Below, one piece after another: positions 1 through 6,752 of a stretch of 64,000 nucleotides of DNA (the stretch's first letter is position 1; the number at the start of each line of letters is the position of its first letter). Source of the stretch: Planctomycetaceae bacterium (GTDB lineage: Bacteria; Planctomycetota; Planctomycetia; Pirellulales; Pirellulaceae); contig PAQH01000058.1 in assembly GCA_002709225.1 (NCBI GenBank), positions 1-64,000 on the forward strand, read 5' to 3'. Under the pieces are notes generated by a model that searched no databases, was not told where the DNA came from, and saw nothing but the letters and a program-made list of their open reading frames with translations. A program made the translations under genes and the position numbers.

Positions 1-2
1 GC

Positions 3-1310
3 TGGTTACGCGAACTGCGCGATCCCCAGGAGGTGCAGCAGCGCGACCGTCACTACCTGTTTTATTCGCTCTACAAAAAGCCGAGAAAATCCCCGACAGG
101 ATTCTCTAACGACGAGAACATTTACTTGGACCGTGCCGCTGAGATGGCTGTTGGAAGTCGGCGGTTTCGGATGGCAGAAGACTTTGGTAACCGTCAATTG
201 CGCACAACACTGCAATTCAAGGCAGTCGGCCTAGCCGATGACGAGGGACTCAAGATTTGGATCAACGACCAGGCTGTCCCTATCGATTACATCAGTCGTG
301 TGCACGACAAGAACGGGCAAAACGTCTATGAAGGCGACACGCTTCCTGCGTTCCATTTGTTTGTGATTGACATGAATTGGCAGACAACCGGTCGCAAACA
401 GCCGCTGGTCTTTGGTGACAATGTGCTCAAGGTGAAGTTGGATCGGAAAAATGGAGGAAGGTCCAGTAAGTCGCTCCGGTTTAAAGAAATGGTGTTGGGA
501 GTGCAAGCCGATGATCAGGGCGGGGTAAGCTCCGTCGATCTCAATGGCTATCTGGACGATTTTGCAGTTTGGTCACGGATTCTAACTGATCAGGAACTTC
601 GATCGGTGTACCAAAACGGTTCCCGAGATATCGGAATTACTGCTCTCCGGGAAGTAGATTCTGCGTCGGGGCTGGACGAAGGATTACAGGTACTCTACGA
701 ATTTGAGCAGGTTGATGCTGTGACCGCGAATAGTAGCGGCAGCCGGCTGCCAGCTAGCCAGGTTGGGCCAGCGGGCTCGCTGGTAACACAAGACGCCAAA
801 GCGCCTCGGATTGGTGACGGCGCGGGAGACTTTACCCAAGACAACGCCACCCTGAAGTTACATAGCAGGGACATGAGGGAATTGCTGGATGCAGCAACAG
901 GTGACCTGACCATCGCGTACTGGTTTAAGGCGGCTGCACGAAGCGCGAATCATACGGTCTGGGCAATGTCGAACGAAATCATTCCCTCGTTGCCGTACCG
1001 TGTGAATCAGGCCAACGCGATGCTTGCCACACACACGATCCAGGTAGAAGATCCGGAAACCGTACTATTTGGACTCGTGAGACCCGGGATCAATAAGACC
1101 GCACGCACCAAGGCCACCTTGGCCGATGGCAAATGGCACCACCTGGCAGTGACGCTCGACCGAGACTCGGCACGCAGCAAATTGACGATACGGCTCTTCG
1201 TTGATGGCACTCCTAGCAAAACACCGCTCATTGATGACCAGCTCGTTCATCGTATACAAGGCATCGTCAGCATCGAAGAATTGGAATCCTACGTCTATGT
1301 GCGCAAATAG
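3..1310 (+). CDS. Secreted LamG-fold (ConA-like) protein, 5'-partial, 3' end possibly truncated
   Basis: The frame is open from the first bases of the window, so the true start lies upstream; an internal GTG at 33 is unlikely to be the start. About 435 residues are visible. Residues 60-175 form a beta-sandwich-like segment (GLKIWINDQ, then FGDNVLKVKL) that resembles the C-terminal part of the Tat-exported barrel-like protein at 27087. A LamG C-terminal signature follows near residue 190 (GYLDDFAVWSRILTDQEL). A second LamG domain starts near 300 (LTIAYWFKA ... DGKWHHLAVTLDRD ... LFVDGTP) but stops soon after this strand, before the usual last strands. In the +1 frame the DNA continues to about 1428 with LamG-like text (LGIALGRPRHCYFSNAID), so a frameshift may have removed the end. 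Probably a planctomycete surface or exported protein; a catalytic domain, if any, would lie upstream. Confidence 0.7.
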   Translation, partial: WLRELRDPQEVQQRDRHYLFYSLYKKPRKSPTGFSNDENIYLDRAAEMAVGSRRFRMAEDFGNRQLRTTLQFKAVGLADDEGLKIWINDQAVPIDYISRVHDKNGQNVYEGDTLPAFHLFVIDMNWQTTGRKQPLVFGDNVLKVKLDRKNGGRSSKSLRFKEMVLGVQADDQGGVSSVDLNGYLDDFAVWSRILTDQELRSVYQNGSRDIGITALREVDSASGLDEGLQVLYEFEQVDAVTANSSGSRLPASQVGPAGSLVTQDAKAPRIGDGAGDFTQDNATLKLHSRDMRELLDAATGDLTIAYWFKAAARSANHTVWAMSNEIIPSLPYRVNQANAMLATHTIQVEDPETVLFGLVRPGINKTARTKATLADGKWHHLAVTLDRDSARSKLTIRLFVDGTPSKTPLIDDQLVHRIQGIVSIEELESYVYVRK

Positions 1311-1770
1311 ACAGTGTCCACAGGCAGGCGGCTGGTTCGCTGAACAGCCTGGGCATTGCCTTGGGCAGGCCTCGTCATTGCTACTTTTCCAACGCAATCG
1401 ATCCCGCCAACTTGAACTAATGTGGCGATAACACGGAGAAGTCCCGCGACCAGACACCAGCCGGCACCCGTCCCAAGAATGCCGTTGCATCCACGCCCGC
1501 TTATGTTACAAACACAAGTCCTGCCAAGGAACATGCCATATTCCTCACGTGCCGAGTTGCCCCGCACGTGCCGAGTTGCAATGACCACACCCCGGCCCAA
1601 TTTCAACTTCTGGCTAGTCAACGTCACGCAAAACGGTTAACCCCGAGCGCCAGAGGTGTTCCTTTCATTAGCTGCCGGCGGATATACGCTGCCTCGCTGC
1701 GTTTCGGAGAGACTGAGATACGCCGCGCCACAGCGCAAGTCATCGACACCGTTGTCGAAAGCGACGCGGA
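1311..1770. other. Gene-poor stretch after the LamG gene
   Basis: No convincing intact gene is seen. Up to about 1428 the sequence may hold the out-of-frame tail of the LamG domain. After that the open frames are short and look random in composition. A 15-bp direct repeat lies at 1546-1579. Confidence 0.4.
1546..1579. repeat. 15-bp direct repeat, two copies
   Basis: CACGTGCCGAGTTGC occurs at 1546-1560 and again at 1565-1579 with a 4-base spacer. Both copies are exact. It lies in non-coding DNA; function unknown. Confidence 0.8.
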
Positions 1771-2109
1771 CTAACCGTGCTCATCAAGTGCACTTTTCGT
1801 GGTATCAGGCCCGTAGGGTTGATCTCGTAACGCCGCGTCAAGCGCCGCCTCAGCAGCGATCGCAAAACGCTCGAGATTTTGGCAACCCAGGCGCATGGAG
1901 GGCGAATTGAAAAGCCACAGGACGTCAATATCAGCCTCTACCATACTATTACGGAGGGCCAATAAACGGGCGCGAACGCGTTCGAGACGTTGTTCAATGG
2001 CACGCAGATCCTGCTCTTCGAATTTCTCAGTCTTCTGTGTTTGCTTTCCCACCAGTGCACACGCTTTTCGCAGATACAACGGTCGATGTACCGCACCAAG
2101 CACACTCAT
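1771..2109 (-). CDS. Hypothetical protein with helical, coiled-coil-like segment
   Basis: Predicted 112 residues from an ATG at 2109. The middle (residues 28-58) is rich in Glu, Arg and Leu with heptad-like spacing (IEQRLERVRARLLALRN), as in a short coiled coil. An Ala-rich amphipathic helix follows near 82-94. No signal peptide or membrane segment is seen. I do not recognise the family. It stands alone in a decayed neighbourhood. An AT-rich tract at 2165-2200 lies upstream of its start and could hold its promoter. The composition looks more like protein than the surrounding frames, but this could still be a chance frame or a gene remnant. Confidence 0.4.
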   Translation of the reverse strand: MSVLGAVHRPLYLRKACALVGKQTQKTEKFEEQDLRAIEQRLERVRARLLALRNSMVEADIDVLWLFNSPSMRLGCQNLERFAIAAEAALDAALRDQPYGPDTTKSALDEHG

Positions 2110-2327
2110 ACTCTACCGGGACAACTGGTGGCGACAAGCCGAAAAAACGCGCCTGCATGCCACACTATTTGATTACAAAAATATAATACTTTTTTAAACA
2201 TGCGAGTCGCCCACGGGCGGATCAAGAGACAAAGCGATTGCAGGACCAAGCGGAAAAGACCGGCACCTTACGCATCCAGGCCAGCAACATCGTTGTGCTA
2301 CCCCGCGCTATAGGGCGCGGCCAGGAC

Positions 2328-2375
2328 AAATCTAATGAGCAAGAAACAAGCAAATCTAATGAGCAAGAAACAAGC
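2328..2375 (+). repeat. 24-bp perfect tandem duplication at the start of the RHH gene
   Basis: Two identical 24-bp units (2328-2351 and 2352-2375) lie head to tail. Each carries an ATG followed by codons for SKKQA, so the duplication adds eight residues in frame and gives two possible starts (2335 and 2359). Confidence 0.9.
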
Positions 2376-2695
2376 AAAAGCCAAACCCGGCTCGGGCTCG
2401 CGCGGCGTGGGCAGACCTGCAACCCACCCAGAGGGCATTACCCGTATCGTCTCGGCAACCTTACCAAGCGAACAAGTCACAAGTCAAAGACCTTGATTTG
2501 ATCGCTAATCAGAAAGGACGTAGTCGTTCTGAGATCATCTCCGGGCCTGCCGACAGTATCTGGTATCGAGCAAGAATCGGAAACTTCATCGTTAACAAAT
2601 CAAACATCACCAGGACTAGGCATCTGTTTCCAGTAACGACGAAAGGGGGCCTGCGAACAACAAGCCCGTGTAACTCACACGACCCTCTAGACTGA
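2335..2695 (+). pseudogene. Broken ribbon-helix-helix (CopG/Arc-like) DNA-binding protein gene
   Basis: From ATG 2335 (or 2359) the frame reads a basic N-terminus, then GRPATHPEGITRIVSATLPS, typical of the leader and beta-strand of small ribbon-helix-helix proteins. It stops at 2494-2496 after 53 codons. A 7-bp unit, ACAAGTC, occurs twice in tandem at 2472-2485. Removing one copy joins SEQV directly to KDLDLIANQKGRSRSEIIS in the frame that runs to the stop at 2693-2695, which restores the expected helix A, turn and helix B. The RHH family usually acts as a dimeric repressor, often of an antitoxin or plasmid-type gene; no partner toxin is visible. A TATAAT hexamer at 2182-2187 could be a promoter element but lacks a clear -35. 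Confidence 0.65.
2472..2485 (+). repeat. 7-bp tandem duplication causing a frameshift
   Basis: ACAAGTC is present twice with no spacer inside the ribbon-helix-helix gene. Because 7 is not a multiple of 3, the second copy shifts the frame and brings in a TGA at 2494. Confidence 0.8.
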
Positions 2696-2876
2696 CGGAA
2701 GTGCTACCCACTCGCTGCATCGGACCAAGCTTCCATCTCCTGTTGCCACACGGATTCGACCAGAAGGCTTGCGACTATGCAGCAGCTGTACCGTTTTGTG
2801 GCACGGCAAGATCGCCAGTAGCTTGCTTTAGTTACGTGCCAGCCAAATAGAGGGCCCTCACGAACGGTGTGACTGT

Positions 2877-3104
2877 TCAGTAATGAGGTGGTTTCTCATC
2901 CAACGGATCTTGGCCCTGGCTGCTATTTTCCACAAGCCATTGAATCTGCACCTCCGCATTCCTGGAATGCTTCAGCAGTTCATCATAATCCAAGCGTAGT
3001 TGGGTGAGCACTCCGTTAAGCTGGTCCAACAATTGTTCCTGATGGGCGACCGATTCTTCGAGTCGAACCAACCGCTCCTGATCCACATCACGCGACATCT
3101 TCAT
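2877..3104 (-). CDS. slyX: SlyX-like protein
   Basis: 75 residues, the usual SlyX size. Nearly the whole protein is a predicted coiled coil (RLVRLEESVAHQEQLLDQLN). It ends in KPPHY, matching the Pro-Pro-His-Tyr tail typical of SlyX proteins. The start at 3104 is preceded by AGGAA seven bases upstream; a second ATG two codons on is possible. It lies 18 bases after the stop of the upstream hydrolase gene on the same strand, so the two may be co-transcribed. SlyX is a small cytoplasmic protein of unknown mechanism, first noted next to the SlyD prolyl isomerase in enterobacteria. Confidence 0.8.
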   Translation of the reverse strand: MKMSRDVDQERLVRLEESVAHQEQLLDQLNGVLTQLRLDYDELLKHSRNAEVQIQWLVENSSQGQDPLDEKPPHY

Positions 3105-3122
3105 CGGCCCATTCCTAGCAGT

Positions 3123-4511
3123 TCATCGAAATCGCAATGAAAACAGATCCGCATCCTGAACCACAAAACGTAAACGTATGGGCTTTCCTGCCCACCGTGA
3201 CAACTGAGTATCCCGCTCCCAGATAACTTGCTGTTCGATCTGGTCTCCCACAAGAGGACAACAGTCAGCAAGCGCAAGGCCTTGCAAAGGACGGCCGCTG
3301 GCGTCTTGAACTTCCACTCGGATCGAACCGCCTCGTTTGCGCGTGCGATAGTTGAGTACGAGTTCCTTGCCGACAAATCTAATCGCGTGCGTCGTCGCAC
3401 TCCCCTGGTTCGCAGAGAGTGACACCAAGCCATCCTTGCGAAACACAAAACGGCGTACACGACAGTCCGGACCTTCATAGTAGGCTTCGGTAGCATAAAC
3501 CGAAAATTCATCTGACTTGCCGGGCAATGACACCATCCCCCACGTCATGTAGTTACTGCGATTACCTCCGCGGTCCTTAGGGGCGGTCTCCGGAACCACA
3601 GGATCGGGCCAGCGGTTGAAACGCAAGCCGTCTCGGCTAGTCATCATAATCGGCTCGACACGACTGTTCTGCTTCGGTAGATAACGCGTTGGGAACCCAA
3701 CCAGAATGTGCTCGGCACCGGGATAATTGAAGACCGCATTCGTGTAGAGATGTTCGCGGGGCGTATTCGCGGGGTATTGCAAGACAACTGGTTTCGTCCA
3801 ATCACGGTAATTCGTGGATGTTTGTGTCATGATCGCGCGGACACCATCAATAAACGTCCGGTGGTAAGCCCTATAAGTACGTGCGTACGGGTCCCAGAAC
3901 GCAAGATTCTGGGAATCAAAATAGCCATCAGTGATGACAGGCTCCTCAGCCATCAACTTCCAATTCACACCATCCGGCGACTGAAAAATGTAGAGCCCCT
4001 TCTTGCCGCGGGGGCGGCCGCGCGAGATTGCCTTGTAACGCGCTGTCGGCGGACATGCCGGGTTCGCATCCTTGAAGACTGCGAAACAATGCGTCCCGAT
4101 CCCGTCCCAGACAATGTTGTTGTGCTTCGAACCCTGAAATTCAACCAGCCCGAGGTCAGGTTTGGTCCAGTGAACACCATCCCGACTCTCGGCATAACAG
4201 GTCACCTCACGATGCGCCGATTGTTTTTGCGCATCCGCGTGCGAGCCACGATAATACATGCGAAATAGATCACCATCCCGAAAAATAGTGTAGTAAGCCG
4301 ATGTATTCCCTTCCCACGGTTTCCCGGTCACGAAGACCACTTCGGCCGGTTTCGGGGAATGCATAACTTGACGTAAATCACCCGTTTTTTCAGCGACCAG
4401 AAAGTCGTCGATCAGTGGTTCCAAACGATCGCCAATCACAATTGGATCCGTCCCCCACAGGATCGATTCAAGACAAACAAACAGCAACAGACCATTCGCA
4501 AATCGGTACAT
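3123..4511 (-). CDS. Exported GH43/GH32-like five-bladed propeller protein
   Basis: 462 residues from ATG 4511, which has an AAGGTG Shine-Dalgarno-like site seven bases upstream and begins a plausible signal peptide (FANGLLLFVCLESILWG). A longer frame to 4574 lacks such support. The body carries propeller-blade features of beta-fructosidase-like families: LIDDFLVA near the N-terminus, DGDLFRMYYRG, AESRDGVHWTKPDLG, QSPDGVNWKL and MTSRDGLRFNRW. These repeated 'SxDGxxW' turns are common in GH32/GH43/GH130-like folds. Planctomycetes encode many such exported proteins of unknown sugar specificity. Catalytic acids cannot be assigned by eye. It is followed closely by the slyX-like gene. Confidence 0.7.
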   Translation of the reverse strand: MYRFANGLLLFVCLESILWGTDPIVIGDRLEPLIDDFLVAEKTGDLRQVMHSPKPAEVVFVTGKPWEGNTSAYYTIFRDGDLFRMYYRGSHADAQKQSAHREVTCYAESRDGVHWTKPDLGLVEFQGSKHNNIVWDGIGTHCFAVFKDANPACPPTARYKAISRGRPRGKKGLYIFQSPDGVNWKLMAEEPVITDGYFDSQNLAFWDPYARTYRAYHRTFIDGVRAIMTQTSTNYRDWTKPVVLQYPANTPREHLYTNAVFNYPGAEHILVGFPTRYLPKQNSRVEPIMMTSRDGLRFNRWPDPVVPETAPKDRGGNRSNYMTWGMVSLPGKSDEFSVYATEAYYEGPDCRVRRFVFRKDGLVSLSANQGSATTHAIRFVGKELVLNYRTRKRGGSIRVEVQDASGRPLQGLALADCCPLVGDQIEQQVIWERDTQLSRWAGKPIRLRFVVQDADLFSLRFR

Positions 4512-6708: not shown

Positions 6709-6752
6709 CTCGACGCCACTTCGTCCAGACCTCGACGCCACTTCGTCCAGAC
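6709..6752. repeat. 22-bp perfect tandem duplication
   Basis: Two identical 22-bp units, 6709-6730 and 6731-6752, each starting CTCGACGCCACTTCG. They lie in the space between the small membrane protein and the DUF1549 gene. Confidence 0.9.

Follow-up and report, generated by a model that had tools for sequence, protein, structure and literature searches.

The window analysed here is a stretch of 64,000 nucleotides from a Planctomycetaceae bacterium (G000; contig PAQH01000058.1, positions 1 to 64,000 of the forward strand). Near its start, two short open reading frames (ORFs) of 53 aa (2335-2496) and 65 aa (2498-2695), confirmed as reported in the first-pass annotation, carry what is left of a gene for a ribbon-helix-helix (RHH) protein, flanked by a divergently oriented gene for a 112-aa protein and by a SlyX-family gene (Table 1). 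A repeat search recovered both of the tandem duplications that the same annotation had placed in this short gene. The first is a perfect 24-bp duplication with copies at 2327-2350 and 2351-2374 and identity running on to 2378 (2.17 copies, 100%); it covers the start codon, giving an ATG at both 2335 and 2359, and lengthens the frame by eight codons without shifting it, so that on its own it is harmless and leaves the gene unbroken. The second is a perfect 7-bp duplication, ACAAGTC, with copies at 2472-2478 and 2479-2485 and identity to 2486, which shifts the frame into TGA 2494-2496, the first of four stops in the starting frame ahead of the ancestral stop (TGA 2494, TAA 2506, TAG 2521 and TGA 2530). 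The pieces of the window copy alone, searched as three overlapping stretches, gave no family match in Pfam.

Table 1. Features at and around the broken RHH gene (window coordinates).
Feature	Positions	Strand	Remarks
Broken counterpart of the 64-aa ORF of G001	1581..1774	+	In-frame TAA and one missing base
Gene for 112-aa protein, divergent from the RHH gene	1771..2109	-	Open in G000 and G001, under constraint
Upstream stretch, better conserved than the remaining intergenic region	2280..2308	+	24/29 bases identical to G001
Perfect 24-bp tandem duplication over the start codon	2327..2378	+	In frame; not in G001
53-aa ORF, the 5' portion of the broken RHH gene; closed by TGA 2494-2496, past the 7-bp duplication	2335..2496	+	
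Perfect 7-bp tandem duplication, frame-breaking	2472..2486	+	Single copy in G001
Central portion of the RHH domain, frame-shifted, as far as the second lesion	2487..2541	+	
Second frame-breaking lesion, one base short relative to G001	2541..2542	+	Alignment with G001
3' end of the putative ancestral reading frame, to TAA 2593-2595	2542..2595	+	Codon-patterned against G001
SlyX-family gene, downstream	2877..3104	-	Open; gap-free alignment to G001

A DNA search of 60 genomes, including that of the window itself, matched two, namely G000 and its congener G001 (Planctomycetaceae bacterium isolate RS398, a metagenome-assembled genome (MAG) of the same genus). In G001, the locus lies on two contig ends (contigs of 8555 and 21126 bp) that overlap by exactly 99 bp, and synteny with the window extends over both flanks in blocks, with window positions 1-1310 and 1485-2541 aligning to one contig and 2446-14623 to the other. 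At the syntenic place, the G001 frame is open over 76 codons and its product matches Pfam RHH_1 (PF01402) over residues 31-66 (E 2.7e-7; 30.8 bits against a curated gathering cut-off of 20.5). The alignment shows one ACAAGTC and no 24-bp duplication in G001, and both duplications are therefore real differences between the two assemblies. The first-pass annotation had held that a single copy in relatives would speak for recent inactivation; the congener is such a relative, lacking both duplications and retaining an open RHH_1 frame, and the pairing of a broken frame in the window with an open syntenic orthologue is that expected of a pseudogene.

The same alignment shows that the window is one base shorter than G001 near 2541/2542. 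The 7-bp duplication, taken at first for the sole lesion, is thus accompanied by a second frame break, and the proposal that dropping one copy of ACAAGTC would restore a full RHH domain holds only in part, as the missing base breaks the frame again before the domain ends. The open frame across the beta-strand, helix A and helix B that characterizes RHH_1 is consequently not found in the window copy, and the 65-aa ORF leaves the RHH frame near 2541/2542, so that its C-terminal tail is not RHH sequence. The two lesions (+7 bp and -1 base) sum to +6, which returns the old 3' end to the starting frame up to TAA 2593-2595. A frame repair conjectured from a single sequence needs a relative; here the second lesion hid behind the first.

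Across 75 codons compared between the window and G001 (the one codon with the missing base being set aside), differences at codon positions 1/2/3 number 7/3/29 (chi-square test against an even spread, p 2.8e-7), with dN 0.043, dS 1.06 and dN/dS 0.04, the lowest of six genes compared (0.058 to 0.21 for the other five). By segment, the counts are 5/2/20 before the lesions (37 codons), 2/0/2 between them (20 codons) and 0/1/7 after them (17 codons). As a control, the 277 aligned bases from the ancestral stop to the SlyX gene show 31/27/39 differences, 180/277 identical bases and six gaps, indicating that constraint ends with the RHH gene. A neutral phase occupying 20% of the G000 branch predicts 13.5 nonsynonymous differences against the 7 seen (P 0.04), and one of 25% is rejected more strongly (P 0.007), in a crude Poisson treatment that halves a pairwise dS of 0.85 and assumes complete constraint before the break; by this crude bound, at most about 20% of the branch would have been neutral. 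To judge from these patterns, the RHH gene was under strong constraint until very recently, and since hardly any neutral drift is seen, the break is either recent or absent from the living genome.

It is considered probable, on the strength of the sequence comparison, that a chromosomal gene encoding a small orphan DNA-binding protein of RHH/CopG type was inactivated recently at this locus, by ordinary small indels. The intact gene would be ancestral, its polarity being set by one congener with no outgroup orthologue found in G002, the third genome of the genus. The ancestral product was presumably a dimeric RHH protein of 76 aa with a basic arm at its N-terminus, acting as a repressor of transcription; the RHH fold binds operator DNA through its beta-strand. 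Small indels would then have broken the gene in the G000 lineage, the 7-bp tandem duplication leading into the stop at 2494 and a base being lost near 2541/2542, with the duplications probably arising from slippage-type events. The earlier suggestion of recent inactivation is supported both by the open syntenic frame with single copies in G001 and by a codon-position pattern with little or no neutral drift.

Near-absent drift after two frame-breaking lesions would also be expected from an error of assembly or consensus in the MAG, with reads from two strains or a low-coverage stretch giving false indels and the living gene intact, an account that is unlikely though far from negligible. The source assembly is fragmented (167 contigs, 82.7% complete), and the G001 assembly also breaks inside the RHH gene with its 99-bp overlap, but that break is not special, as another pair of the G001 contig ends examined also overlaps by 99 bp. 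An error would, moreover, have to produce three separate indels within about 215 bp, against no frame break in 3844 neighbouring orthologous codons. These codons belong to eight larger orthologous ORFs in the first 14.6 kb, hand-picked from a tblastn table from which antisense and paralogous rows were dropped; none is frame-broken in the window and one has 3 gapped residues. Two frame-breaking indels in the 231 bp of the RHH gene, as compared with none in 11.5 kb of neighbouring orthologous ORFs, gives a Fisher p of 0.0004, which argues against a general error rate and not against a local one. Perfect duplications of 24 and 7 bp are atypical of base-calling errors.

The first-pass annotation had also read two duplications within 160 bp as a sign of slippage or of a recently inactivated gene. 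In 439,567 bases of G000 (the window and 20 further stretches), perfect tandem repeats with periods of 7-80 number 62, and 15 of these have a period of at least 15, where two resamplings of a first-order Markov model gave a chance expectation of 32.5 and none, respectively; the 7-bp repeat alone is therefore unsurprising, and the 24-bp repeat is not due to chance. In G000 DNA outside ORFs, 13 tandem repeats in 34.6 kb correspond to about 0.38 per kb, under an ORF mask (stop-to-stop, at least 150 codons) that also hides some non-coding DNA. At this rate, arithmetic places two within 160 bp in approximately one of 600 such stretches, which for the sampled 34.6 kb amounts to some 0.4 occurrences, so that neither a special mutator nor a special slippage mechanism has to be invoked. 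The possibility that G000 has more tandem duplications throughout its genome was tested and rejected, as the congener sample (343 kb of G001, a total that includes 12 kb of G002) holds 52 tandem repeats, with 11 in 24.5 kb outside ORFs (0.45 per kb); repeats of period at least 15 outside ORFs numbered 6 in G000 and 2 in the congener sample. Another perfect two-copy tandem repeat, of 22 bp, lies at 6709-6752 of the window, between two blocks aligned with G001.

In the surroundings of the RHH gene, the genes for the 112-aa and SlyX-family proteins have dN/dS values of 0.13 and 0.14, respectively, against G001. The 112-aa protein has no Pfam match above its cut-off; its distant relatives lie in G072 and G117, from one other genus of the family (35-38%), and in G200, from another (25%); no RHH ORF was spotted by eye in the ORF lists of the whole 3.4-kb contig of G117 or of the first 3.5 of 7 kb in G072. 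The counterpart of the G001 64-aa ORF at 1581-1774 has 19/11/16 differences at codon positions 1/2/3 (p 0.34 in a test against an even spread); it shows no codon-position constraint and may be an older pseudogene or may never have been a gene; it is preceded, at 1543-1579, by an imperfect duplication with 19-bp spacing that is present in one copy in G001. In G001, an open stretch of 99 codons follows the RHH stop and, having neither a Pfam match nor codon-position constraint, is not taken for a gene. Opposite window positions 1311-1580, G001 (L021 4156-7600) carries genes for a 507-aa SelO protein and a 445-aa DUF1501 protein (Pfam E values of 1.6e-112 and 9.2e-95, respectively), both of which are missing from the corresponding position of the window; searched with the SelO protein, G000 yields at best a 39% relative, located on a different contig. 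Between the RHH gene and its divergent neighbour, the more conserved upstream stretch contrasts with the other four intergenic blocks (35/51, 36/60, 35/59 and 15/26 identical bases) and is a possible candidate promoter or operator, judged by its conservation; no sigma-70-like site emerged from a promoter scan. On the minus strand, four terminator-like sites lie inside or just after the RHH gene (1.2 expected in shuffled sequences), three of which overlap each other, and an Rfam search of window 1300-3200 returned nothing.

In G002 (81% complete), a neighbouring gene for a 483-aa protein is present with 72% DNA identity, the RHH gene was matched by neither DNA nor protein search, and a comparison with the neighbourhood at window 1760-2130 returned an empty answer in a search that had no positive control. 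Directly beside the 483-aa gene in G002 are the 3'-terminal 54 nt of a tRNA-Leu (L032 2843-2896), matching at 94% identity the complete tRNA-Leu that G001 has at L021 666-749; in G001, the stretch with the RHH gene lies within the approximately 8.5 kb that separate this tRNA-Leu from the 483-aa gene. This arrangement suggests a tRNA-targeted insertion or replacement at the locus.

The gene had been described at first as perhaps selfish. That it is what remains of a toxin-antitoxin or mobile module of a selfish kind is very doubtful. RHH antitoxins exist, the antitoxin EndoAI is the best sequence match in the PDB (E 0.0013), the tRNA-Leu fragment of G002 hints at past insertion near the locus, and there are weak matches to PHROGs families of phage RHH repressors (best E 1.2e-5), such as any RHH domain would be expected to give. 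Against this, no toxin or defence family was recognised among the neighbours searched (112-aa, 64-aa and SlyX; SelO, DUF1501 and the 99-codon stretch in G001), in libraries that varied from one neighbour to another, and the adjacent toxin gene that marks a type II antitoxin is thus missing from this set; the RHH protein has no PADLOC match; and the gene occupies a single locus in G000 and in G001, with no relative on plasmids or viral contigs (31 pattern matches in the latter, none a relative).

It is extremely improbable that the gene is still read through recoding, with the +7/-1 shifts bridged, beginning with a +1 slip at CCT-TGA (2491-2496) that re-enters the RHH frame. The lesions do sum to +6 with the 3' end again in the starting frame, and recoding, if true, would account for the lowest dN/dS of the six genes despite two frame lesions, but it requires two opposite shifts, the segment between the lesions holds four stops in the starting frame, and the G001 gene needs none of this. 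A phase-variable switch in which the 7-bp copy number toggles the gene is hardly credible either, as the repeat, although perfect and of a length that is not a multiple of 3, has just two copies and the second lesion would keep the frame broken at any copy number.

Recent loss of an intact gene by small indels remains the preferred reading, and the case documents how a planctomycete lineage appears to have lost, very recently, an orphan regulator that was under strong constraint; otherwise it adds little beyond annotation. A literature search of limited depth returned nothing on this case. The gene is an orphan restricted to its lineage and occurs at a single place in each genome. A protein search of 199 genomes of the family (E <= 0.001) matched five, including G000 and G001, the other three (G077, G094 and G120) at 35-40% identity, and a search of 392 genomes of the phylum (E <= 1e-4) matched three including its own, the other two at 39-40%; G001 was not among the latter matches, presumably because it was not drawn into that sample. 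A scan of a collection of 84,980 species, which finds close relatives only, returned just two contigs, both of G001 (PBOG01000030.1 and PBOG01000044.1). In G077, a 77-aa RHH gene occurs three times, each time inside a repeat (1577-3318 bp, without differences between the copies) and beside a 342-aa ORF that we take to resemble an IS-type transposase; these copies represent a remote RHH rather than the orthologue.

Among known families, the G001 protein belongs with the CopG family, matching RHH_1 (PF01402) above its cut-off, whereas two frame breaks interrupt the window copy. RHH_5 (PF07878) aligns with residues 31-68 of the G001 protein (E 1.3e-5) at 25.2 bits, just below its cut-off of 26. 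The best NCBIfam match, to the aCcr1 family cell cycle regulator (NF053762), reaches E 1.6e-5 over the RHH core, with 24.7 bits against a cut-off of 60. Likeness to RHH antitoxins, including EndoAI (chain 4me7_E), RelB-like (NF048017) and BrnA (NF047399) proteins, is weak and lies over the RHH core, at 14.4-17.4 bits against NCBIfam cut-offs of 50-60, and the RHH gene differs from these systems in having no recognised toxin gene beside it.
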